A stretch of DNA of 47,001 bases from Lewinellaceae bacterium. GTDB taxonomy: Bacteria > Bacteroidota > Bacteroidia > Chitinophagales > Saprospiraceae. The notes under the pieces are model-generated. The model was not told the DNA's origin and searched no databases. It saw nothing but the letters and a program-made list of their open reading frames with translations. The position numbers and the translations under genes are program-made. The stretch is taken from contig JARQTN010000159.1 in the NCBI GenBank assembly GCA_029976695.1, positions 7,350 to 54,350 on the forward strand. Direction: 5' to 3'. The first letter of the stretch is position 1; every line of letters begins with the position of its first letter. Of the stretch, positions 1 through 10,127 are shown one piece after another.

Positions 1-1521
1 TTCCTTGAAGGAGAATTTCCCGCGGGTTTCAAGAGGCTTCGGGACGCCACACGGGATATGCTGGATGAAATGCGTGCGGTATCGCCATATATCGAATATG
101 CATTTGAAAACCCGAATGCGGGTTCTACAGAGGAAGCGAATGCACGACGGGAGGAACTTGTCCGGGAAGGGCTGATCCCCACCAACCTGCGCACACGTGC
201 GGCAGGGGAAGCAAAACAGCAGCAGATCTTTCCGTATGCCATCTTCAATTTCAGTACGCGAAAGGTGGTGGTCAACCTGCTGGAGCCGGACCAGCCGGGC
301 ACCTCGCCTGAAGTTACCCTGAATCACAGTGTCAGCCTGCTGGAATACAAGATGGCCAATGCGATCCAGAAGCTGAAGCTCACACAAAAACCGAATATCC
401 TGTTCACTACAGGCCATGGTGAGCTCGATCCCCTGCAAACCCGTTCATTTGAAAGGGAGCTGGGCAAGTATTACAATACGGGCAGGGTGGACCTCGACGA
501 AAGTGTCCGCCTTTCTGAAGAAATCGACCTGCTGATCGTAGCCAAGCCAAGGGAGGCTTTTAGCGTACAGCACCAGTACCTGGTCGACCAGTACATTGTA
601 CGTGGCGGCAGTGTGCTTTTCCTGCTTGATGCCCTGGATGTGAACCTGGACAGCATTAACCTGAAGCGGAATTTCATCCCAAAGCCCTTCGACCTCGGAC
701 TTGACAGGATGCTCTTCAAGTATGGTGTCAGGCAGCAACCCGACCTGGTGCTCGACCTGCAGTGTACACGGATCCCGATCGTAGTGGGCACCCAGGGGAA
801 CCAGCCACAGACAGAGCTTTTCCCGTGGTACTACCATCCGCTGGTCACGCCCAGGTCCGAACACCCGATCTCACGCAACCTGGGCCTGATGAATTTCCTT
901 TTTCCGTCATCGCTGGATACCATTCAAACGAAGGCAGACATCCGCAAGTCCATCCTCCTCCGATCTTCGGAATATTCCAGGTTCCAGCTGACCCCCGTCC
1001 GGCTGAATTTTGATATCGTCACTGAAGAACCGATCCCGGAAAAATTCAACAAGCCCCATCTCAACCTTGCTGTGCTCCTTGAAGGGGAGTTTGAGTCTGC
1101 TTTTGCAAACCGGATGACGCCTGAAATGCGGGCACTTTCGGAACAGGTTGGGGCACCTTTCAAGCCAACGGGTGCTGCGGGAAAGGTGCTGGTTGTTTCT
1201 GACGGCGACCTGGTCAAAAACCTGGTGAACCGGAATACCGGGGAAGTATCCCCTGTGGGTTTCAACAGGTACGAGAATTTCATATTCAAAGGCAACCAGG
1301 ACTTCCTGCTCAACGCCGTCGAATACCTGATCGGGGAGGGCGATGTACTGGCAGCGCGCTCAAAGGAGGTGAAACTGAGGCTGCTTGACACGGTCGAGGC
1401 GCAGCGCAGCTCACTTAAATGGCAGTTGATCAATATTGTTCTACCTTTGGCGCTGCTCATTCTTTTTGGGATTGCATACCGGTTTTACAGACACCGGAAA
1501 TTTGGAAAAAGAGCGGCATGA
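1..1521 (+). CDS. gldG: GldG, gliding-associated ABC-type auxiliary protein (5' partial)
   Basis: The frame is open from base 1, so the N-terminus lies outside the window; 506 residues are visible. The visible part starts inside a conserved segment (FLEGEFPAGFKRL) typical of GldG. It ends with one hydrophobic helix (WQLINIVLPLALLILFGIAY) and a basic tail, so the large domain faces the periplasm and is anchored at its C-terminus. In Bacteroidota GldG acts with the ATPase GldA and permease GldF in gliding motility. The stop overlaps the start of the DUF4340 gene in ATGA, which implies translational coupling. gldF would be expected just upstream, outside the window. The family call is from recognised sequence; function in this organism is inferred. 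Confidence 0.93.
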   Translation, partial: FLEGEFPAGFKRLRDATRDMLDEMRAVSPYIEYAFENPNAGSTEEANARREELVREGLIPTNLRTRAAGEAKQQQIFPYAIFNFSTRKVVVNLLEPDQPGTSPEVTLNHSVSLLEYKMANAIQKLKLTQKPNILFTTGHGELDPLQTRSFERELGKYYNTGRVDLDESVRLSEEIDLLIVAKPREAFSVQHQYLVDQYIVRGGSVLFLLDALDVNLDSINLKRNFIPKPFDLGLDRMLFKYGVRQQPDLVLDLQCTRIPIVVGTQGNQPQTELFPWYYHPLVTPRSEHPISRNLGLMNFLFPSSLDTIQTKADIRKSILLRSSEYSRFQLTPVRLNFDIVTEEPIPEKFNKPHLNLAVLLEGEFESAFANRMTPEMRALSEQVGAPFKPTGAAGKVLVVSDGDLVKNLVNRNTGEVSPVGFNRYENFIFKGNQDFLLNAVEYLIGEGDVLAARSKEVKLRLLDTVEAQRSSLKWQLINIVLPLALLILFGIAYRFYRHRKFGKRAA

Positions 1522-2495
1522 GGAAGACATTGATACTTTTATTGATCGTGGTAGCGGCAGGTTTCATAGCCTGGAAGTTGATCCGGAATGAACCGGAAAA
1601 GAAAGCCAGTTATGATACCAGCATGTCGGAATTTGCGATCGAGGATATCCAGTCGGTAAACCATATCTTCCTTTCAGACAAATCAGGCAAGCAGATCGAT
1701 TTGAAAAAGAACAGCCGGGGCTGGATCGTCAATGACAAGTATCCCGCAGACCCGGGTTCTGTTGACCTGTTGCTGAAGGGCATGCAAAAGCTGGAGATCC
1801 AGTATATCCCGCCCAAGGCGGCAGAGGAAAATATCATCAAGACAATGGCTGCTTTCGCGATCCAGGTGGAAGCTTTCGGAAAGAAGGACAAATTGCTGAA
1901 GAAGTACTATATCGGTGGAATGACCCAGGACGAGCGTGGCACCTATTTCCTGATGGATGGATCGAGCCAGCCCTATGTGATGCAGGTGCCCGGGTTTGTC
2001 GGCAACCTGCGAGAACGGTTCCGCCCCGAACTTGGCCGGTTCAGATCACTGAAATTCATGCAGTTTGATCCGGATGATGTGGTAGCGGTGAGGGCCACAT
2101 ATCCAAACCAGGGGGAAAATGATTTCCTCCTTGAATCCACCCTGACCGGGTACCAGGTGTATTCCGGTGAAGACCTGCCTGGGGGAATCCCCCAAAAAGC
2201 AGCAAAAGGGAAAGTGGACGCTTACCTCGGCCGGTTGCAGAAGATCGCATGTGAAGCCTATCTGACGGAAGACATCAGGCAGGATTCTGTAACTGCCGGG
2301 ACACCATTCTGTTCACTTGAACTCGAATTCAGGGACGGAAAGGAGAGCCGTGTGCGGTTCTGGCAAAAACTGAATCCAGGGATCCCGGATCAACCTGTCA
2401 ACCGGTTTTTTATCCTGAAAGACAACGAGTTCATGCTGGGCCAGTATGAGGTCCTAAAAGAAGCATTCCGGAATGGGGCCTTTTTTACGCACTGA
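1518..2495 (+). CDS. DUF4340 domain-containing envelope protein
   Basis: 325 residues. I place the start at the ATG overlapping the gldG stop (ATGA) because it gives MRKTLILLLIVVAAGFIAWK, a single N-terminal membrane segment; an earlier in-frame ATG at 1419 would lie deep inside gldG. The rest is a predicted periplasmic beta-rich domain of the DUF4340 type. Such proteins often follow GldG-like genes and are thought to belong to the same ABC assembly, but no biochemical role is established. The next gene begins 23 bases before this stop, so the four genes from gldG onward look like one transcript. Confidence 0.8.
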   Translation: MRKTLILLLIVVAAGFIAWKLIRNEPEKKASYDTSMSEFAIEDIQSVNHIFLSDKSGKQIDLKKNSRGWIVNDKYPADPGSVDLLLKGMQKLEIQYIPPKAAEENIIKTMAAFAIQVEAFGKKDKLLKKYYIGGMTQDERGTYFLMDGSSQPYVMQVPGFVGNLRERFRPELGRFRSLKFMQFDPDDVVAVRATYPNQGENDFLLESTLTGYQVYSGEDLPGGIPQKAAKGKVDAYLGRLQKIACEAYLTEDIRQDSVTAGTPFCSLELEFRDGKESRVRFWQKLNPGIPDQPVNRFFILKDNEFMLGQYEVLKEAFRNGAFFTH

Positions 2496-3732
2496 CAAAC
2501 CGGGCGGCAGCAGTCGTTTTACCCTGGTCATCGTGATCGGGATATTGACCTGCGCACTGATGGCCATGAAGCCATTGCCCTGGGGCTTTTATGCGCATCG
2601 CATGATCAACCGGATGGCGGTCTTTATCCTGCCCACCGAAATGATCAGTGTATTCAAGGCCAACATCGAATTCGTCACAGAGCATGCCGTAGACCCGGAT
2701 AAAAGGAGGTATGCGACTGAACATGAAGCCGTCCGCCACTACATGGACCTGGACCACTGGGGCAAGGCCCCGTTTGATTCGCTCCCCCGGGAATGGACGG
2801 ACGCAATCGCACAAAACCTTTCCCTTTACTGCCTGTCCGAAGGCCGGGATACCCTGCTTCTCTATGAAACCCATCATGACTATTGGGGGAAGAATGCGTC
2901 CGAGGCAGAGGCATATGCCGGCGTGAGGGCATTTACCCGCACGCACGTGTTGCCTGGCTTCTATGAGGATGTATTGAAGTATCCACGTGATACGATCCGA
3001 AAGTATTTCCCGGGCATAGGTCTTTGCCCTGATGGCGAGATCCTGGTCAGGGAGAACTTCAGCGAGCATGGTATTTTGCCCTACCACCTGCTTGTGATGT
3101 ATCGCCGGCTCACCAATGCATTTGCAGATATGGACCAGCAGCGGATATTGCGCCTGGCAGCGGAAATCGGCCATTATATCGGCGATGCCCATGTACCGCT
3201 GCATACAACGAAAAACTACAATGGACAGTTGACGGGGCAGGAAGGGATCCACGCATTCTGGGAATCCCGGATTCCGGAGCTCTTCGCCGGCACCGAATAT
3301 GATTTCTGGGTGGGTACGGCGACCTATGTTGAAGACCCTCCAGCTTATTTTTGGGAAATGACCCTGCAGAGCCACGCATGCGTTGAGGAGGTCCTGGAAA
3401 AAGAAATGGAGGTCAGAAAAGAGGTTCCGGCCGATCGGCAATTCTGTTTTGACGAACGGCTGGGCAGCACGATTTTAACCCAGTGCAGGGAATATGCCGA
3501 TGCGTACAGGAACGCAATGGACGGGATGGTAGAAAACAGGATGCGGCAGGCGGTACGGGCATTGGGGAACGTCTGGTATTCTGCATGGGTGGATGCGGGT
3601 CAGCCCGACTTGGACAAGCTCGTCTATCGTGACCCGACCGAAGAAGAGATCCTGGAGGACAGGCAACTGGATGCCCGGTACCGCCAGGGCGTAGCGAAAG
3701 GAAGGAAGCACCAGGACGAAAAGTTTGAATGA
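2473..3732 (+). CDS. Zinc-dependent phospholipase C / S1-P1 nuclease-like protein
   Basis: 419 residues with an N-terminal hydrophobic segment (about residues 16-32), so probably exported or membrane-anchored. Putative metal ligands fit the trinuclear-zinc fold shared by S1/P1 nuclease and bacterial phospholipase C: W37 and H42 in WGFYAH, the RHYMDLDH segment near 89-95, H234/D238/H244 in HYIGDAHVPLH, and H260/E264 in HAFWE. Glu at the last position is like B. cereus phospholipase C (E146), whereas P1 nuclease has Asp. It overlaps both neighbours (23 bases with the DUF4340 gene; ATGA with the DUF368 gene). The substrate, phosphodiester lipid or nucleic acid, cannot be decided from sequence. 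Confidence 0.78.
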   Translation: MGPFLRTDKPGGSSRFTLVIVIGILTCALMAMKPLPWGFYAHRMINRMAVFILPTEMISVFKANIEFVTEHAVDPDKRRYATEHEAVRHYMDLDHWGKAPFDSLPREWTDAIAQNLSLYCLSEGRDTLLLYETHHDYWGKNASEAEAYAGVRAFTRTHVLPGFYEDVLKYPRDTIRKYFPGIGLCPDGEILVRENFSEHGILPYHLLVMYRRLTNAFADMDQQRILRLAAEIGHYIGDAHVPLHTTKNYNGQLTGQEGIHAFWESRIPELFAGTEYDFWVGTATYVEDPPAYFWEMTLQSHACVEEVLEKEMEVRKEVPADRQFCFDERLGSTILTQCREYADAYRNAMDGMVENRMRQAVRALGNVWYSAWVDAGQPDLDKLVYRDPTEEEILEDRQLDARYRQGVAKGRKHQDEKFE

Positions 3733-4745
3733 CAGATCATTGGCAGATGGAGAATAAATACACGATACAAGTACGATCCCGGAAGCCCCTTCTTCTCGTG
3801 CTGAAAGGCATGGGCATGGGCGTAGCAGAAGTGATCCCGGGCGTTTCAGGAGGCACGATTGCATTTATCACCGGGATCTACGCACAACTCATCGATTGCA
3901 TCAAGTCTTTCGATGCACAGGCAGTCAAATTGTTGTTCACCGCAAAATGGCGTGAACTCTGGAACCATATCCATGGAAGTTTTCTCGTTTTCCTCTTGAC
4001 CGGTATGGTAGGCGGGGTAATTATCGGAGTATTCGGGATCTCCAGGCTGATGGAGACACGCCCCGAAATCCTCTGGGCCTTCTTTTTCGGGTTGATCATC
4101 GCCTCTGCAATCTATGTCGGGAAACAGGTGAAAAAGTGGTCCGTGGCTGTCGTGATCCTGTCAATCGCTGGTGCCGCCCTTGCCTTCTGGATCACACTGG
4201 TGACACCGACTGAGGCCAGCCTGAGTCCGCCGTATGTGTTCCTGTGCGGCATGATCGCCATTTCAGCCCTGATCCTGCCGGGTATCTCGGGAAGTTTCAT
4301 TATGCTGCTCATGGGGATGTATACGGTGATCATACCCATGGTAAAAAGCCTGCTGAAGGACCAGGACCTGTCGGTATTGGGTACGTTGGCAATTTTCGGG
4401 ATCGGATGTATTGTCGGACTTGCTACTTTTTCGCGGGTCTTGTCCTGGATGTTCCGGAATTATGCAGACCATACGCTTGGACTGCTTTCCGGCTTCATGA
4501 TCGGATCATTATTCAAGATCTGGCCGTGGCGAAACCCGATTCGCTGGATGGATGATTCCGGCCAGATGCTTGATGCAGATCAAGTCGCAACACTTTCAGG
4601 TTCCGCACTGGAGCATTTACGCATCGTCTCCGAACTGAATGTCTTGCCGGCTGATTACACGGCTGGCAGCCCTCAAGTGGTGCTCGTTGTCTTGTCAGCA
4701 CTTTTCGGGTTTGCGATCGTCTTTCTGCTTGAACGGTATTTTTAA
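3729..4745 (+). CDS. DUF368 family polyisoprenyl-phosphate translocase (PopT-like)
   Basis: 338 residues, strongly hydrophobic with about eight or more membrane segments. The N-terminal signature GVAEVIPGVSGGTIAFITG is the DUF368 hallmark, and a second copy of the idea, ISALILPGISGSFIMLLMG, sits near the middle, suggesting an internally duplicated inverted-repeat fold. DUF368 proteins of Staphylococcus aureus and Vibrio cholerae have been shown to recycle undecaprenyl phosphate across the membrane. The ATG at 3729 overlaps the previous stop; an ATG at 3747 is an alternative. The gene ends 7 bases from the convergent protease gene. Its position at the end of a gldG operon is unusual for a lipid-carrier recycling protein. 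Confidence 0.88.
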   Translation: MTDHWQMENKYTIQVRSRKPLLLVLKGMGMGVAEVIPGVSGGTIAFITGIYAQLIDCIKSFDAQAVKLLFTAKWRELWNHIHGSFLVFLLTGMVGGVIIGVFGISRLMETRPEILWAFFFGLIIASAIYVGKQVKKWSVAVVILSIAGAALAFWITLVTPTEASLSPPYVFLCGMIAISALILPGISGSFIMLLMGMYTVIIPMVKSLLKDQDLSVLGTLAIFGIGCIVGLATFSRVLSWMFRNYADHTLGLLSGFMIGSLFKIWPWRNPIRWMDDSGQMLDADQVATLSGSALEHLRIVSELNVLPADYTAGSPQVVLVVLSALFGFAIVFLLERYF

Positions 4746-4752
4746 CTGCAGA

Positions 4753-7689
4753 CTACAGTTTGACCACCTTGAAGGTGCTTATCCGGTTGCCATTTGTTAC
4801 CGAGAGTAAATAGATGCCTTGTGGGTATCCGTCCATTCCTTCAAACCGGATTGTTTCTTCCACAGTTGAAGAAAGGGTTCGGTCAATCTCCCTGATCATA
4901 TTGCCCCGGATATCCATCATGCGGAATGCATATTCACCCGACCGGTCAGGACGGATCCGTGCCGTGACAGCATCGCTGAACGGGTTCGGAAACAGGGTGA
5001 CACCGGTAATTTCCCCGGGCTCTTCCACGCTTGTGGGGCAATCGGTCGCAAATGTGACACTTTGAGAATACTGGCTCGTGTCTGCCGGGCAGATTGTCCG
5101 CACCTGGAATTCATACACGGTGCATTGATCAAGGTCCGACAGCAATGCAAAAGTATCGAGGGTCGTCATCGGCTCCTCCCATTCGGTATCAAAGAATTTT
5201 TTGTACCGGTAGTTGAAGACAATGGATGTCTCGACCTTATCCCAGATCATCGTCGCACTCGATTCAGAAACGGCACCATCGACCTTCAGTGAATCAACAT
5301 TGAAACAAGGCACCTGGGCCGGACCCATCACGATGCAATAGTCTTCTACTTCACCAAATTCAAACCTGTCACAGGGGACCGAGGGAGCATCTTCGCGGAA
5401 TCGCATGGATACACGCATCCGGGTACTCCCTTCCTCGGCCTGGTAGGGGAGCACGATTGTATCTGTTACGGTGCTATCCGTGAGTTCGGAAGCATAGATG
5501 AGTTCTGCTGTATCCTGGAAAATACCATCCTGGTTCAGGTCGATCCAGACGGAAAACAACTCCTCAAACTGGACAAAGCCGAAGCCTGGCTCGATCCGGA
5601 TGATATACTCAGCACCCGGGAAAAACAGAGCGGGCTCATCTGCAAAGAAGGCGTACCCGTCATTCGGACCGGAGAGGTTATCGATCGGGCCGAATGTGAA
5701 CCGTTCGATCCATTCGTCCTCAACATTGTCCCCTTTTGAAGCGCAATATGTGAAGTCCAGGCATGCGCCACAGCCAGCGGTGGTAAAGAAATAAGGCTCT
5801 GAAAAGCCGGTATCGGAGGTATCGCAGTCTGTGAGAAAGCGGACTTCGTATTCCGTGCAGCTTACGAGACTATCCAGGATCACGCCATTGTCTGCAGTGA
5901 TCACAGTATCGTACGTGGTTTCATTTGTATTTCGGATCGCCAGGGCATAGCCTACACCGGCAAAAATGTCTTCCCAGCTCACCATCGTCATTTCCTCAGT
6001 GAGATTGTCAAAGTCAACCAGATCGGGAAGGACACAGCATCCCTCGGATTCGAAGGCTATTGTATCAGATACAGCTGTCATCTCCCCGCACAGGTTGGAG
6101 ATGGCGAATTCATATACATTGCATGCGGTCAGCCCGGTCAAAACGTACGGTGAGGTAATGCTGTCGATCGTTGTCCAGGTATCTGAACCGGCGAGCCTCC
6201 AGTGCAAGGCTGAGTAATCTACCGAATCGGTTACGCCCCATGATATCGTCGCCTGCACATCCAGGATGCTGTCCACCCTGATGGCAAAGGGGGCGGGACA
6301 CTCGCTTCCCCTTTCAAGAAGGTATTCTGCGGCCCCGAAAAGGTTCAGCCGTGCGCCGGTTACGGTGATCCCGTCCAAAGAGGCATTCGGCTGGGCTCCG
6401 TTCAGGATGGATTCCTTGACGAGCAATGCTGCCTCGCCCGGGCTCTGGTTTTTGATGGACATGAGCAGAGGGCAATCCGTTGCATATAAAAGGGCAACGG
6501 CACCAGCTACATGGGGCGTGGCCCCGGATGTCCCCCCGAAAGCCCCGTAGGCATTGGATCCGGCAACAGTCCATGTTCCCGATCCAAATGCGCCAAGGTC
6601 AATGGATTCAAGTCCATACCCGGCACTGGAAACCTTCATGTCATTGCGGTCCATATTGGTGACGGAAATCAGGTAATCGCTCTCACATGCTGTCGGCAGG
6701 TCGCCAGACTCATCAACGTTGATATTGAGATTGGCTGTTGCCCCACAATTCAGGATGCCGTATGTACCCAGTGTATCATAAAAAGCACACCACAAGGGAG
6801 CCTCGTCAGGTTTGCCAAAATCAATCCCCCAGCTTGCGTTCGTCGCCACGACGAAGGCACCTTCCGCGCCATTGCTTTCATTGTATTTTTTTCTGAATTC
6901 GAGCGGGTAGGCGTAGGCGGAAAGGACATTGCTTTCTGTGAGTTGTCCAAGGTTGACAAGCATCAGTTTTACGTCCCAGTTGACACCTGCAACGCCGACC
7001 CCGTTATTTCCTTTTGCACCCACGATACCAGCTACGGCATTTCCGTGGCCGCCAAAACCGCCCAGGTCATTATTGTCGTCATCGATATTCCAGCCGTTGA
7101 TGTCATCCACATAGCCATTCAGGTCATCGTCAATCCCGTTGCCCGGGATCTCGCCATGGTTGATCCAGAGATTATCCACGATATCGGGATGTGACAGGCT
7201 GAAATTGTCATCCACGACACAGACCACAATGGTATCACCGTCAATCGTGACGCCTCCTGTGGCCAAATCCCATGCCAGGTCTGCATTGATATCCGCCCCC
7301 GGAGTACCCCCTCCCTGGCCGGTATTGAGATACTGCCACTGGTTGACAAACTGCGGATCATCCGGGACAGTCTGCCGGAGGGCGATCACATGGTTGAATT
7401 GCGCTGTGTGCACGTCAGGGTGGGCCTGCAAGGCTTCCAGGAAAGCCCCTTCATGGATGCGCACATGGTCGAAGCTGAACAGGTAGGTATCCATATGCTG
7501 GCTGATCATCCGATCCACTTTCACCCGGGTGGGTGTGCGCTGGAAGACGTTGAACTGGTCGGCAAGCCTTTCCGGGCTTTTCTGTGCTTCCATCCGAACG
7601 AGGAGATGACCAAGGACGTGATCGAGTTTTTGTCCCTGGATGATTCCTGCGGTACATAAAATGAGGGCAAAGCAAATGATCTGGCGCAT
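4753..7689 (-). CDS. Secreted subtilisin-like (S8) serine protease with GEVED and T9SS sorting domains
   Basis: 978 residues from the ATG at 7689, which gives the signal peptide MRQIICFALILCTAGIIQGQ; the upstream in-frame ATG at 7731 would spoil it. The catalytic triad is visible: Asp about 160 (VVDDNFSLSHPD), His about 215 (GGHGNAVAGI), Ser about 388 (GGTSGATPHVAGA), and a probable oxyanion Asn in NASWG. A stretch of about 80 residues before the catalytic domain resembles an inhibitor/propeptide region. After it come fibronectin III-like repeats, a GEVED domain (FEFGEVEDYC) and a C-terminal type A sorting domain (TLFPNPFSDAV...). It is therefore predicted cargo of the type IX secretion system. 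It is divergent from the SPOR-domain gene across a 251-base spacer. Confidence 0.93.
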   Translation of the reverse strand: MRQIICFALILCTAGIIQGQKLDHVLGHLLVRMEAQKSPERLADQFNVFQRTPTRVKVDRMISQHMDTYLFSFDHVRIHEGAFLEALQAHPDVHTAQFNHVIALRQTVPDDPQFVNQWQYLNTGQGGGTPGADINADLAWDLATGGVTIDGDTIVVCVVDDNFSLSHPDIVDNLWINHGEIPGNGIDDDLNGYVDDINGWNIDDDNNDLGGFGGHGNAVAGIVGAKGNNGVGVAGVNWDVKLMLVNLGQLTESNVLSAYAYPLEFRKKYNESNGAEGAFVVATNASWGIDFGKPDEAPLWCAFYDTLGTYGILNCGATANLNINVDESGDLPTACESDYLISVTNMDRNDMKVSSAGYGLESIDLGAFGSGTWTVAGSNAYGAFGGTSGATPHVAGAVALLYATDCPLLMSIKNQSPGEAALLVKESILNGAQPNASLDGITVTGARLNLFGAAEYLLERGSECPAPFAIRVDSILDVQATISWGVTDSVDYSALHWRLAGSDTWTTIDSITSPYVLTGLTACNVYEFAISNLCGEMTAVSDTIAFESEGCCVLPDLVDFDNLTEEMTMVSWEDIFAGVGYALAIRNTNETTYDTVITADNGVILDSLVSCTEYEVRFLTDCDTSDTGFSEPYFFTTAGCGACLDFTYCASKGDNVEDEWIERFTFGPIDNLSGPNDGYAFFADEPALFFPGAEYIIRIEPGFGFVQFEELFSVWIDLNQDGIFQDTAELIYASELTDSTVTDTIVLPYQAEEGSTRMRVSMRFREDAPSVPCDRFEFGEVEDYCIVMGPAQVPCFNVDSLKVDGAVSESSATMIWDKVETSIVFNYRYKKFFDTEWEEPMTTLDTFALLSDLDQCTVYEFQVRTICPADTSQYSQSVTFATDCPTSVEEPGEITGVTLFPNPFSDAVTARIRPDRSGEYAFRMMDIRGNMIREIDRTLSSTVEETIRFEGMDGYPQGIYLLSVTNGNRISTFKVVKL

Positions 7690-7887
7690 AAGTGAGTGGT
7701 TGAAATCTGAATCGGAGTGAATATCCGACAATTCTGTGGCAATAAAGTTAAAAATAAGTTGATCATTTCAGTTTGTATTGGCATGCGAGATTGGAAATTG
7801 ACACACCACTGACAAAGTTGCTGGCGGAGATCATCAGGATGGAAAAGTAAATTTTCATATTACTTATTATTATCATATATTAGAGCA

Positions 7888-7927
7888 ATGTTTTCAATAA
7901 AACATGTATTATAATATTCTGTAATAC
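7888..7927. promoter_or_regulatory. Two adjacent inverted repeats in the divergent spacer
   Basis: ATGTTTT-caat-AAAACAT (7888-7905) is a perfect 7-bp dyad. It is followed directly by GTATTA (7906-7911) pairing with TAATAC (7922-7927). The pair ends 13 bases before the ATG of the SPOR-domain gene. They could be an operator or a 5' UTR hairpin; the region is very AT-rich, so chance is possible. Confidence 0.35.
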
Positions 7928-7940
7928 TATAATTCAAACA

Positions 7941-10127
7941 ATGATGAGACTTATTACCCCGCTGTTTGTCATGATCCTGTCCTTTCAGCTGGTCACAGGC
8001 CAGTCCACTTTTTCCAGAGCAGAGACACAATATGAAATGCAGGCCTACAAGGCTGCATTAAAGTCCTACATGGAGTGTTACCGTGAAAACCCGGCATACA
8101 TCCAGTGTGCAGAGGGGGTTGCCATGTGCTATGCCCGGTTGAATGACTTTATGCATGCAGCCCAGTGGTATGAAAAGATCATTGATCATACCGAAGTCAG
8201 CCCGGATGTGATCTTTGCGTACGCGAGGACATTGAAAGCACTTAAACTGTACGGGAAAGCAAAATTCTACTTTGAGCGGTATGCCGCTTTCGATGCGGAA
8301 ACGGGAGAGCATTTCGCAGCTTCCTGCGATTTTGCGATCAACAGGGTGGAAGCAAAACCTGCATTCCGGATCACCAATGCCTATTTCAATACATCAGACC
8401 ACGATTTCGGCCTTGCCACCTGGAACGACAAGCTTGTGTTTACAAGCTTCAGGAAAGATATTCCCAAAACGAGGAGAACGGCAGAAACATCCTTGGCTGC
8501 AGGTGCAGGCAGTGACCTGTATCTGATTGACCCGCATGTGGAGGCGAATGTTCGCCTGCTGTTTGACGATATTGCGGACCATGCCCAGGTCGGTCCCGTC
8601 CATTTTTCCGCAGATGGCAAATCAGTGGCACTCACAAAGAACACAGTCAATGAGGAAAGCAAGTTCTTTGTGCCGGCAGAAAACCGGATGAGCCTTTACC
8701 TGGCCACTGTGGGTGATCATGGCAAGTGGGAAAAAGTGAGGCCATACCCATTCAATGACAACAGCTATTCGACAGGCTTTCCGTGGCTGTCCGAGGACGG
8801 TATGATCATGTTTTTTGCAAGTGACATGCCTGGTGGTTATGGCGGATATGACCTGTATGTGAGTTACCTGGACAACGGGAAATGGACTGAACCTCAAAAC
8901 CTGGGGGCAGACATCAATACGCCCGGAAATGAAATTGCTCCGTTCAAATCAGCAGAACACTTCTATTTTTCCTCTGACTGGCACCCTGGGTTTGGAGGAC
9001 AGGATATTTTCAGGACAAAATATGCGAATGGGGAATGGGCCCCGGTTGCACATCTCGGGGTAGGTGTCAATTCGCCAAAGGATGACATCGGTTTTGTTTT
9101 CAATGAAGCAGACAAAACAGGATACTTCTATTCGGACCGCCTTGCAGGTCGTGGCAAAATGGATATTTACAAGGCTGAGGCAAATATGCGTGAAGTCGAG
9201 ATCGTGGTGGAGGACAGGGATGTGCAGGCACCGGTTCTGGATGCACAGATCCTTTTCTCCGAAACCGGCCTGAAGCTGAGCACTGATGATGCGGGGATTG
9301 CTACTGTGCTCCTTTCTCGTGATACTAAAGAAGAAGTGACGATCACGGCAGAAGGCTATCACCCGATCACCATGAAGCTGAAAGGAGTCGGGGATTCCAA
9401 CGAGGTAATGAGATACCAGGTATATGTGGATGCACTGGAAGCAGGTCAGTCCTCCGAACTTGCTGTTGAAGTGGGCAGGGATCAATCTGAAGAACGAATA
9501 CCGGCCATCGCGAATGAACCTGCGGAAGACCTGAGAGAGTCCGCTCACCCTGTTGAGGAGGCAAATGAAGAGCTTGCTCCGCCGATGAAGAAGGTATATG
9601 TCAGGCAGGCACCAGAAATGAAATACGCAATCCAGGTTTCCGCCTTCTCCAAAGGGGAGTATCGCCCCGAGCGCTACCAGTCCCTGAACACTGTAGGTCA
9701 GGTGTATGACTACAGCGAGAACCAGATGACGAAAGTGCGCGTGGGCTATTTTGATACCAGGGCCGAAGCCTCGGAAGCGATCCCGGCTGTGCGCGGGAAA
9801 GGTTTCCGGGATGCGTTTGTCGTAGAGCAGATGGTCTTTCCGGGCGGGCAGCAGGCCGCTGGGGGCCAGGTTTCGTTTGACTATGCCGATTTCAAGGTTC
9901 GCCTGGCCACGTATGCGAAGCCCGGGCATTTTGACGCCGGCAAGGTGGCAAAGATCGGGAAACTTGAATCCTACAAGAAAAATGACCTGACTATCATGTT
10001 GATCGGAGGGTTCCATACGCTGGTTGAGGCCCGTGAGGCGCTCGAACAAGCGCAGCTCGCAGGTTTTCCGGACGCCTGTATCGTAAAGGACATGGGCGGC
10101 GTTTTGGAGAAGATACGGAATGAATAA
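7941..10127 (+). CDS. TPR / PD40 propeller / CRD protein with two C-terminal SPOR domains (PorE-like architecture)
   Basis: 728 residues with a signal peptide (MMRLITPLFVMILSFQLVTGQ). Domain order: TPR-like helices at about 25-135; PD40/TolB-like beta-propeller repeats at about 145-410 (for example SDMPGGYGGYDLYV and SDWHPGFGGQDIF); a carboxypeptidase-regulatory-like beta domain at about 418-495; an acidic linker at about 505-555; and two SPOR-type repeats at about 561-632 (KYAIQVSAF...KVRVGYF) and 649-718 (FKVRLATYA...TIMLIGGF). TPR-propeller-CRD is the layout of PorE, the T9SS peptidoglycan tether, but PorE ends in an OmpA domain. SPOR domains bind denuded glycan strands. A role in anchoring an envelope complex to peptidoglycan is inference. 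A strong terminator follows. Confidence 0.82.
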   Translation: MMRLITPLFVMILSFQLVTGQSTFSRAETQYEMQAYKAALKSYMECYRENPAYIQCAEGVAMCYARLNDFMHAAQWYEKIIDHTEVSPDVIFAYARTLKALKLYGKAKFYFERYAAFDAETGEHFAASCDFAINRVEAKPAFRITNAYFNTSDHDFGLATWNDKLVFTSFRKDIPKTRRTAETSLAAGAGSDLYLIDPHVEANVRLLFDDIADHAQVGPVHFSADGKSVALTKNTVNEESKFFVPAENRMSLYLATVGDHGKWEKVRPYPFNDNSYSTGFPWLSEDGMIMFFASDMPGGYGGYDLYVSYLDNGKWTEPQNLGADINTPGNEIAPFKSAEHFYFSSDWHPGFGGQDIFRTKYANGEWAPVAHLGVGVNSPKDDIGFVFNEADKTGYFYSDRLAGRGKMDIYKAEANMREVEIVVEDRDVQAPVLDAQILFSETGLKLSTDDAGIATVLLSRDTKEEVTITAEGYHPITMKLKGVGDSNEVMRYQVYVDALEAGQSSELAVEVGRDQSEERIPAIANEPAEDLRESAHPVEEANEELAPPMKKVYVRQAPEMKYAIQVSAFSKGEYRPERYQSLNTVGQVYDYSENQMTKVRVGYFDTRAEASEAIPAVRGKGFRDAFVVEQMVFPGGQQAAGGQVSFDYADFKVRLATYAKPGHFDAGKVAKIGKLESYKKNDLTIMLIGGFHTLVEAREALEQAQLAGFPDACIVKDMGGVLEKIRNE

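Follow-up and report, generated by a model that had tools for sequence, protein, structure and literature searches.

The window analysed here, a 47,001-nucleotide stretch of DNA from a Lewinellaceae bacterium, encodes a PorE-like scaffold protein of 728 residues that ends in two SPOR units and has no OmpA domain. The gene (7941..10127, forward strand, ATG start) was defined from the open reading frame call, Pfam, NCBIfam and orthologues. On balance, we favor the reading that its product is a soluble periplasmic scaffold, which grips denuded glycan through the first SPOR unit (SPOR1) and is linked to a protease exported by the T9SS. The domains, the SPOR fold, the single clade, the conservation of the contact residues, the gene pairing and the T9SS genes described below are computed results.

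The scaffold starts with a signal peptide of approximately 21 residues (7941..8003), recognized by eye. A lipobox pattern scan found no lipobox cysteine in it (…LVTGQ/STF), and by eye it looks like a type I signal peptide. Downstream, on the same strand, are TPR-type helices (residues 23–135; 8007..8345), a PD40-type β-propeller (residues 142–414; 8364..9182) and a CRD-like β domain (residues 416–496; 9186..9428). The mean pLDDT of the full-length model, which delineates these domains, is 81.5. A linker predicted to be disordered (residues 502–556; 9444..9608; pLDDT <50) precedes SPOR1 (residues 559–632; 9615..9836) and SPOR2 (residues 651–724; 9891..10112). The 728-residue protein on its own has no Pfam match to the TPR, PD40 or CRD families at E≤0.1. 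Its relatives do have such matches: among 30 aligned members, PD40 is found in 28, TPR_19 in 26 and CarboxypepD_reg families in 23–24. The full model and the Pfam matches in relatives bear out the TPR–PD40–CRD arrangement in PorE order that the first-pass annotation had proposed. A Foldseek search with the full model was little informative, with propeller enzymes at the top ranks.

The same annotation had placed two SPOR repeats where PorE has its OmpA domain, and this also holds: Pfam finds no OmpA domain in the scaffold at E≤0.1, and structure prediction of the C-terminal repeats, which had been suggested as a check, gave SPOR folds. Against Pfam PF05036, the whole protein scores 42.3 bits (cut-off 21), with the best stretch at residues 561–628, that is, in SPOR1. 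SPOR2 is weak alone in Pfam, as two PF05036 stretches pass at 0.1 and one at 0.01. It is found at 1.8e-8 by a profile of the family's first repeats, in a search of a small sequence set (locus L165). The model of residues 545–728 has a mean pLDDT of 88.9 and a pTM of 0.51; the latter value leaves the relative placement of the two SPOR units unsure. Both units adopt the β-α-β-β-α-β arrangement of the RNP-like SPOR topology in this model. In VIA-align, the top match pairs SPOR2 with the SPOR domain of Pseudomonas aeruginosa RlpA in complex with denuded glycan (6i09; Z 8.8, rmsd 1.7 over 69 residues), followed by the RlpA SPOR domain solved without ligand (Z 8.6) and by CwlC (Z 8.4), the latter also aligned by SPOR2. 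SPOR1 aligns with DamX (Z 5.7) and DedD (Z 5.5), and FtsN is found at Z 5.2. These Z values are modest; SPOR entries occupy ranks 1–3, 5, 6 and 8. With Foldseek alone, generic ferredoxin-like folds lead and CwlC is at rank 29. A profile of the tail against PDB sequences finds CwlC at 2.2e-8. The SPOR fold is therefore shared with RlpA, CwlC, DamX, DedD and FtsN, and SPOR1 also matches their glutamine and basic positions, but unlike these proteins the scaffold carries the unit twice. To our knowledge, none of the five has a TPR–propeller–CRD scaffold.

According to PMC6895207, denuded glycan is contacted by a glutamine (Q270 in RlpA, Q251 in FtsN, Q351 in DamX) and a basic patch; for the glutamine, the contact is seen in RlpA, and the residue is also important in FtsN and DamX. 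We counted the corresponding residues in 53 proteins of the clade, one of them truncated and the other 52 as in the tree described below. In SPOR1, position 565 is glutamine in all 53, and a basic residue is present at position 598 in 49 and at position 600 in 51. We read K598 and R600 as the counterparts of the basic patch of known SPOR domains. In SPOR2, the position matching the glutamine (R654 in the window) is R in 27, Q in 22, K in 3 and S in 1 of the 53. Its third strand carries Thr in 49/53 and K at position 686 in 14/53, and there is no basic residue on this strand in the 728-residue protein and none conserved across the clade. Because the contact positions are kept in SPOR1 and varied in SPOR2, SPOR1 looks competent and SPOR2 diverged, as far as the sequences can indicate.

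The 52 SPOR-ending proteins form one clade with a bootstrap and an SH-aLRT of 100 each in a tree of the N-terminal part. This tree has 77 rows, all 52 SPOR-type and 25 other proteins, with the long-branch rows L009–L011 from the window's own genome among those omitted; its bootstrap is incompletely settled (correlation 0.989). A quick N-terminal tree of 116 rows, with long branches among the own-genome rows, also gave an SH-aLRT of 100 for the SPOR clade. A one-off fusion or an assembly artefact could be ruled out, as all 29 best loci of the family besides the window end in two SPOR units and the 52 proteins are one clade. One protein of 1025 residues (L081:7992-11066) has an OmpA domain and, further on, one SPOR unit. 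It is placed among the OmpA-type proteins, outside the SPOR clade, a position suggestive of at least two separate gains of SPOR by a PorE-like scaffold, the second apparently by addition. PorE-like proteins with three SPOR units each were seen at L049:7785-11177 (Saprospiraceae) and at L052:1463-4684, a contig labelled Thermoanaerobaculia. The latter contig is probably mis-binned, as its protein groups with that of L049.

Some match to the 728-residue protein is present in all of the 120 sampled genomes of the GTDB family of the window; from the weak scores, we read part of these matches as OmpA-type paralogues only. A profile of the SPOR pair finds 113/120 of these genomes at E≤1e-8. The pair is nearly complete (E≤6e-26) in 104/120, a count that includes several short forms without the scaffold. 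Pfam SPOR is matched at E≤0.01 by 29 of the 30 aligned proteins. In a sample of the order (298 genomes), 80 of the 87 genomes of the family have the pair at E≤1e-15. The seven that lack it at this threshold are each at least 98% complete, so the pair is not essential to the family. A sample of the phylum (395 genomes) has the pair in five of its six family genomes at E≤1e-12. Outside the family, matches were found in ten genomes of another family of the same order, several with more than one match, and in two genomes of the phylum sample. No PorE-like N-terminus was found at the twelve out-of-family loci read, one per genome. The ten from the same order are other multi-SPOR proteins (L191–L200), some of them in adjacent genes and some with N-termini that appear redoxin-like by eye; the two from the phylum were judged on the part seen, one of them running off its contig. 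Because these searches sample genomes and cap the candidates scored in each, rare carriers could escape them.

Genome contigs were also searched. A single-sequence search with the 728-residue protein found no relatives. An alignment-based search gave 580 confirmed stretches, of which the best-scoring 80 were used; among these, 23 SPOR-type loci carry a name: Saprospiraceae (16), Saprospirales (1), Aureispira (1), Bacteroidetes (1), Bacteroidota (2), Chitinophagales (1) and Thermoanaerobaculia (1).

Divergent from the scaffold gene, across an intergenic region of 251 bp (7690..7940), lies a subtilase gene on the reverse strand (4753..7689). Pfam and NCBIfam identify its S8, GEVED and Por_Secre_tail domains. 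We chose the ATG at 7689 as the start; the open reading frame itself opens with TTG at 7731. The subtilase carries a T9SS type A sorting domain, in agreement with its earlier description as a T9SS cargo protease, and the arrangement recurs in relatives. A relative of the subtilase directly adjoins the scaffold gene, divergently, at 12 of 52 SPOR-type loci including the window, and lies within six genes at 14 of 52. Within three genes, a subtilase is found at 12/52 SPOR-type and 0/51 OmpA-type loci (blastp, 1e-20). The 52 SPOR-type loci omit G027 and include one identical protein twice (L143 and L071), and hence 51 are distinct; the 51 OmpA-type loci are the best-scoring part of a longer match list. 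When the 79 genomes present in both match lists were compared, 24 had a subtilase no more than 5 kb from the SPOR part, head-to-head in every case. This is a minority, with some assemblies too broken for the pairing to be judged. By a rough estimate (two matches in 5 Mb, 10-kb target), fewer than one genome would be expected to show the pairing by chance.

Genes for Kazal-type inhibitors were noted within three genes and on the opposite strand at five of the 52 loci (L127, L131, L133, L141 and L146), identified by Pfam at one locus and by blastp at the others. At L127 and L131, the inhibitor gene occurs together with a subtilase. Upstream of the scaffold–subtilase pair is a block of gldA, gldG, a DUF4340 gene, a gene for a 419-residue protein with weak nuclease/phospholipase matches and a DUF368 gene, covering window positions 1–4745 and the adjoining contig. 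The 5′ end of gldG (1..1521, forward strand) lies beyond the window, and gldA is just upstream on the contig; with TIGR03521 at 463.7 bits and TIGR03522 at 421.3 bits, both genes score above cut-off. The DUF368 gene (3729..4745, forward strand; PF04018) is undecaprenyl-phosphate translocase-like by its Pfam name. Parts of this block recur at 5–7 of the 52 loci including the window, and DUF368 is upstream at six. No divisome gene was found among the recurrent scaffold neighbors that were scanned.

Seven proteins of 272–406 residues have the SPOR pair without the TPR–propeller part (genomes G012, G118, G111, G088, G050, G645 and G626; loci L170–L174, L202 and L203). They remain after the inspection of nine short-frame loci, from which G015, a scaffold gene split in two frames, and G722, which runs off its contig, were excluded; G065, also short, is outside this set. 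Q565 and K598 are retained in each of the seven, with position 600 always basic; six of them are head-to-head with a subtilase, G050 being the exception. The existence of these forms indicates that the scaffold part is not always needed.

Among the closest described proteins is PorE (PG1058) of Porphyromonas gingivalis, a periplasmic protein with the same TPR–propeller–CRD order and a wall-binding C-terminus (PMC5053529, PMC7192894). PMC9143113 describes PorE as an OM lipoprotein that binds the DAP-containing stem peptide through OmpA_C and is found in a complex with PorP and PG1035. In the SPOR-type scaffold, by contrast, a lipobox is missing and the C-terminus consists of two SPOR folds. Its best NCBIfam match is CHU_0125_OmpA (NF053607), over residues 2–424 of its N-terminal half, yet the score of 215.6 bits is far under the cut-off of 620. 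PMC5891637 describes CHU_0125 as a Pal homologue affecting OM integrity. The T9SS_PorE family (NF052230) aligns with residues 11–480 at 174.9 bits against a cut-off of 600, a value that the six scanned paralogues from the same genome also miss (best 368 bits). A simple pattern scan found a lipobox in 0/52 SPOR-type and 3/57 OmpA-type proteins. Its absence is thus common in the wider family and does not decide against a PorE role; the F. johnsoniae homologues of PorE are likewise not predicted to be lipoproteins (PMC7192894).

The genome of the window has seven further PorE-like open reading frames, six of which match the OmpA profile, so that OmpA-type paralogues coexist with the SPOR-type scaffold, a co-occurrence that had been proposed for checking. 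One of them is a lipoprotein (L152:1175-3175) with 404 bits to CHU_0125 and 368 bits to PorE. Another paralogue (L155:8182-10305) has a weak OmpA match and, after it, a stretch that resembles SPOR in hhalign (probability 71) but has no SPOR match in Pfam. Three further SPOR proteins of this genome are one with a thioredoxin-like N-terminus by eye (L001), one of 142 residues (L003) and one with an N-terminal membrane segment, FtsN-like in layout by eye (L004). The OmpA-type PorE-like proteins of Bacteroidota that are linked to PorP/SprF share the scaffold, but the linkage itself separates the two types, since a PorP-like gene is within two genes at 45/51 OmpA-type and 1/52 SPOR-type loci. PorP/SprF genes adjoin three of the seven own-genome paralogues, and four have no PorP-like neighbor. 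As porE and porP are presumably apart in P. gingivalis too, neighborhood alone is insufficient to rule out a PorE role. The genome has the T9SS genes for SprA (2238 bits) and GldM (253.2 bits), both above cut-off. Our analysis found no link between the SPOR-type scaffold and a specific T9SS component.

These results separate two parts of the first-pass interpretation. The scaffold order, the SPOR pair, the SPOR1 contacts, the T9SS genes and the divergent protease stand. The alternative tether of the T9SS, if read as PorE itself, is not supported, given the missing lipobox, the score of 174.9 against 600, the better OmpA-type lipoprotein paralogue and the lack of a PorP neighbor. A canonical PorE replacement was accordingly rejected as the main reading, as the protein has no OmpA domain and no lipobox and scores far under the cut-off.

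From the computed features, we infer glycan binding, the location in the cell, the existence of a partner and a functional meaning of the gene pairing. In a single family of the Bacteroidota, probably Saprospiraceae, tandem SPOR would have replaced OmpA_C in a PorE-like ancestor. SPOR1 would hold glycan strands stripped of their peptides by amidases, and SPOR2 may be a diverged second grip. The floppy linker could let the TPR–propeller–CRD part reach and hold an envelope partner at sites of denuded glycan. The recurrent divergent subtilase, itself exported by the T9SS, suggests that this partner or process is tied to T9SS export or surface proteolysis, which would occur where the wall is remodelled, for example at septa. 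We count for this explanation the SPOR fold, the invariant glutamine (53/53), the single clade, the occurrence in 104/120 genomes, the subtilase pairing, the short forms, the T9SS genes and gldA/gldG upstream; against it are the minority pairing, the short forms without scaffold, the diverged SPOR2, the lack of a link to a T9SS component and the 7/87 absences.

In a more specific and rather speculative version, to which we give only tentative credence, the two genes would form a lineage-specific module. The SPOR pair of the PorE-derived scaffold would mark septal denuded glycan and, together with the exported subtilase, bring proteolysis to septa, with the protease and the SPOR pair as the core and the TPR–propeller part as an optional docking platform. 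Septal surface proteolysis might serve cell separation or the processing of a surface layer in filaments.

The protein could alternatively be a division or cell-separation factor like DamX or RlpA, its PorE-like part serving as a platform for divisome or wall enzymes with no role in the T9SS. We consider this possible, but not probable. PMC6895207 assigns every known SPOR protein a role in division or morphogenesis, and the nearest solved relatives are wall-turnover proteins. The 51/52 loci without a PorP-like gene within two genes and the six with DUF368 upstream would also fit. However, the commonest close partner gene found encodes a T9SS cargo protease, the recurrent neighbors scanned include no divisome gene, and the FtsN-like layout in this genome belongs, by eye, to a separate SPOR protein (L004).

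Subtilase propeptides have a ferredoxin-like topology similar to that of SPOR repeats. The repeats might no longer bind glycan and instead be protein modules that hold or restrain the subtilase before its export. The short forms, which keep little beyond the SPOR pair and lie beside a subtilase in 6/7 cases, and the Kazal inhibitor genes within three genes at 5/52 loci are compatible with such a role. We regard it as improbable, since the contact positions of SPOR1 are conserved (glutamine in 53/53) and kept in 7/7 short forms, and many genomes have the protein but no subtilase was found beside it.

The strict form of the first reading, in which the protein is the T9SS's own PorE tethered through SPOR rather than OmpA, is very improbable: it has in its favor the common scaffold, the presence of the T9SS, a SPOR precedent in the T2SS secretin LspD of Legionella (PMC9239104) and the indecisive character of both the lipobox (absent from 54/57 OmpA-type proteins) and the PorP neighborhood (absent from 4/7 own paralogues), but it is opposed by the distance to the PorE cut-off, the absence of OmpA, the OmpA-type lipoprotein paralogue in the same genome and the seven short relatives that lack the scaffold.

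No paper describing the TPR–propeller–CRD–SPOR layout was found in the open-licence PMC literature, and the word SPOR has no occurrence in the PorE papers PMC5053529 and PMC7192894. The 2016 survey of PorE refined its homologues by the four domains of PorE, as described in PMC5053529, and would probably have missed a scaffold of the SPOR type. LspD likewise has SPOR in a secretion machine; it belongs to another machine and another protein family, a secretin whose SPOR domain is N-terminal (PMC9239104).

PorE has been proposed to anchor parts of the T9SS by gripping the peptide stem of the wall. A family with a related scaffold and a binder of glycan strands separates the scaffold from its grip on the wall, and the recurrent protease partner offers a concrete candidate for the process it serves. 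The SPOR-type scaffold would thus allow a direct test of whether the type of wall contact sets the site of surface secretion, and in these bacteria surface secretion may be tied to sites where the wall is being remodelled.
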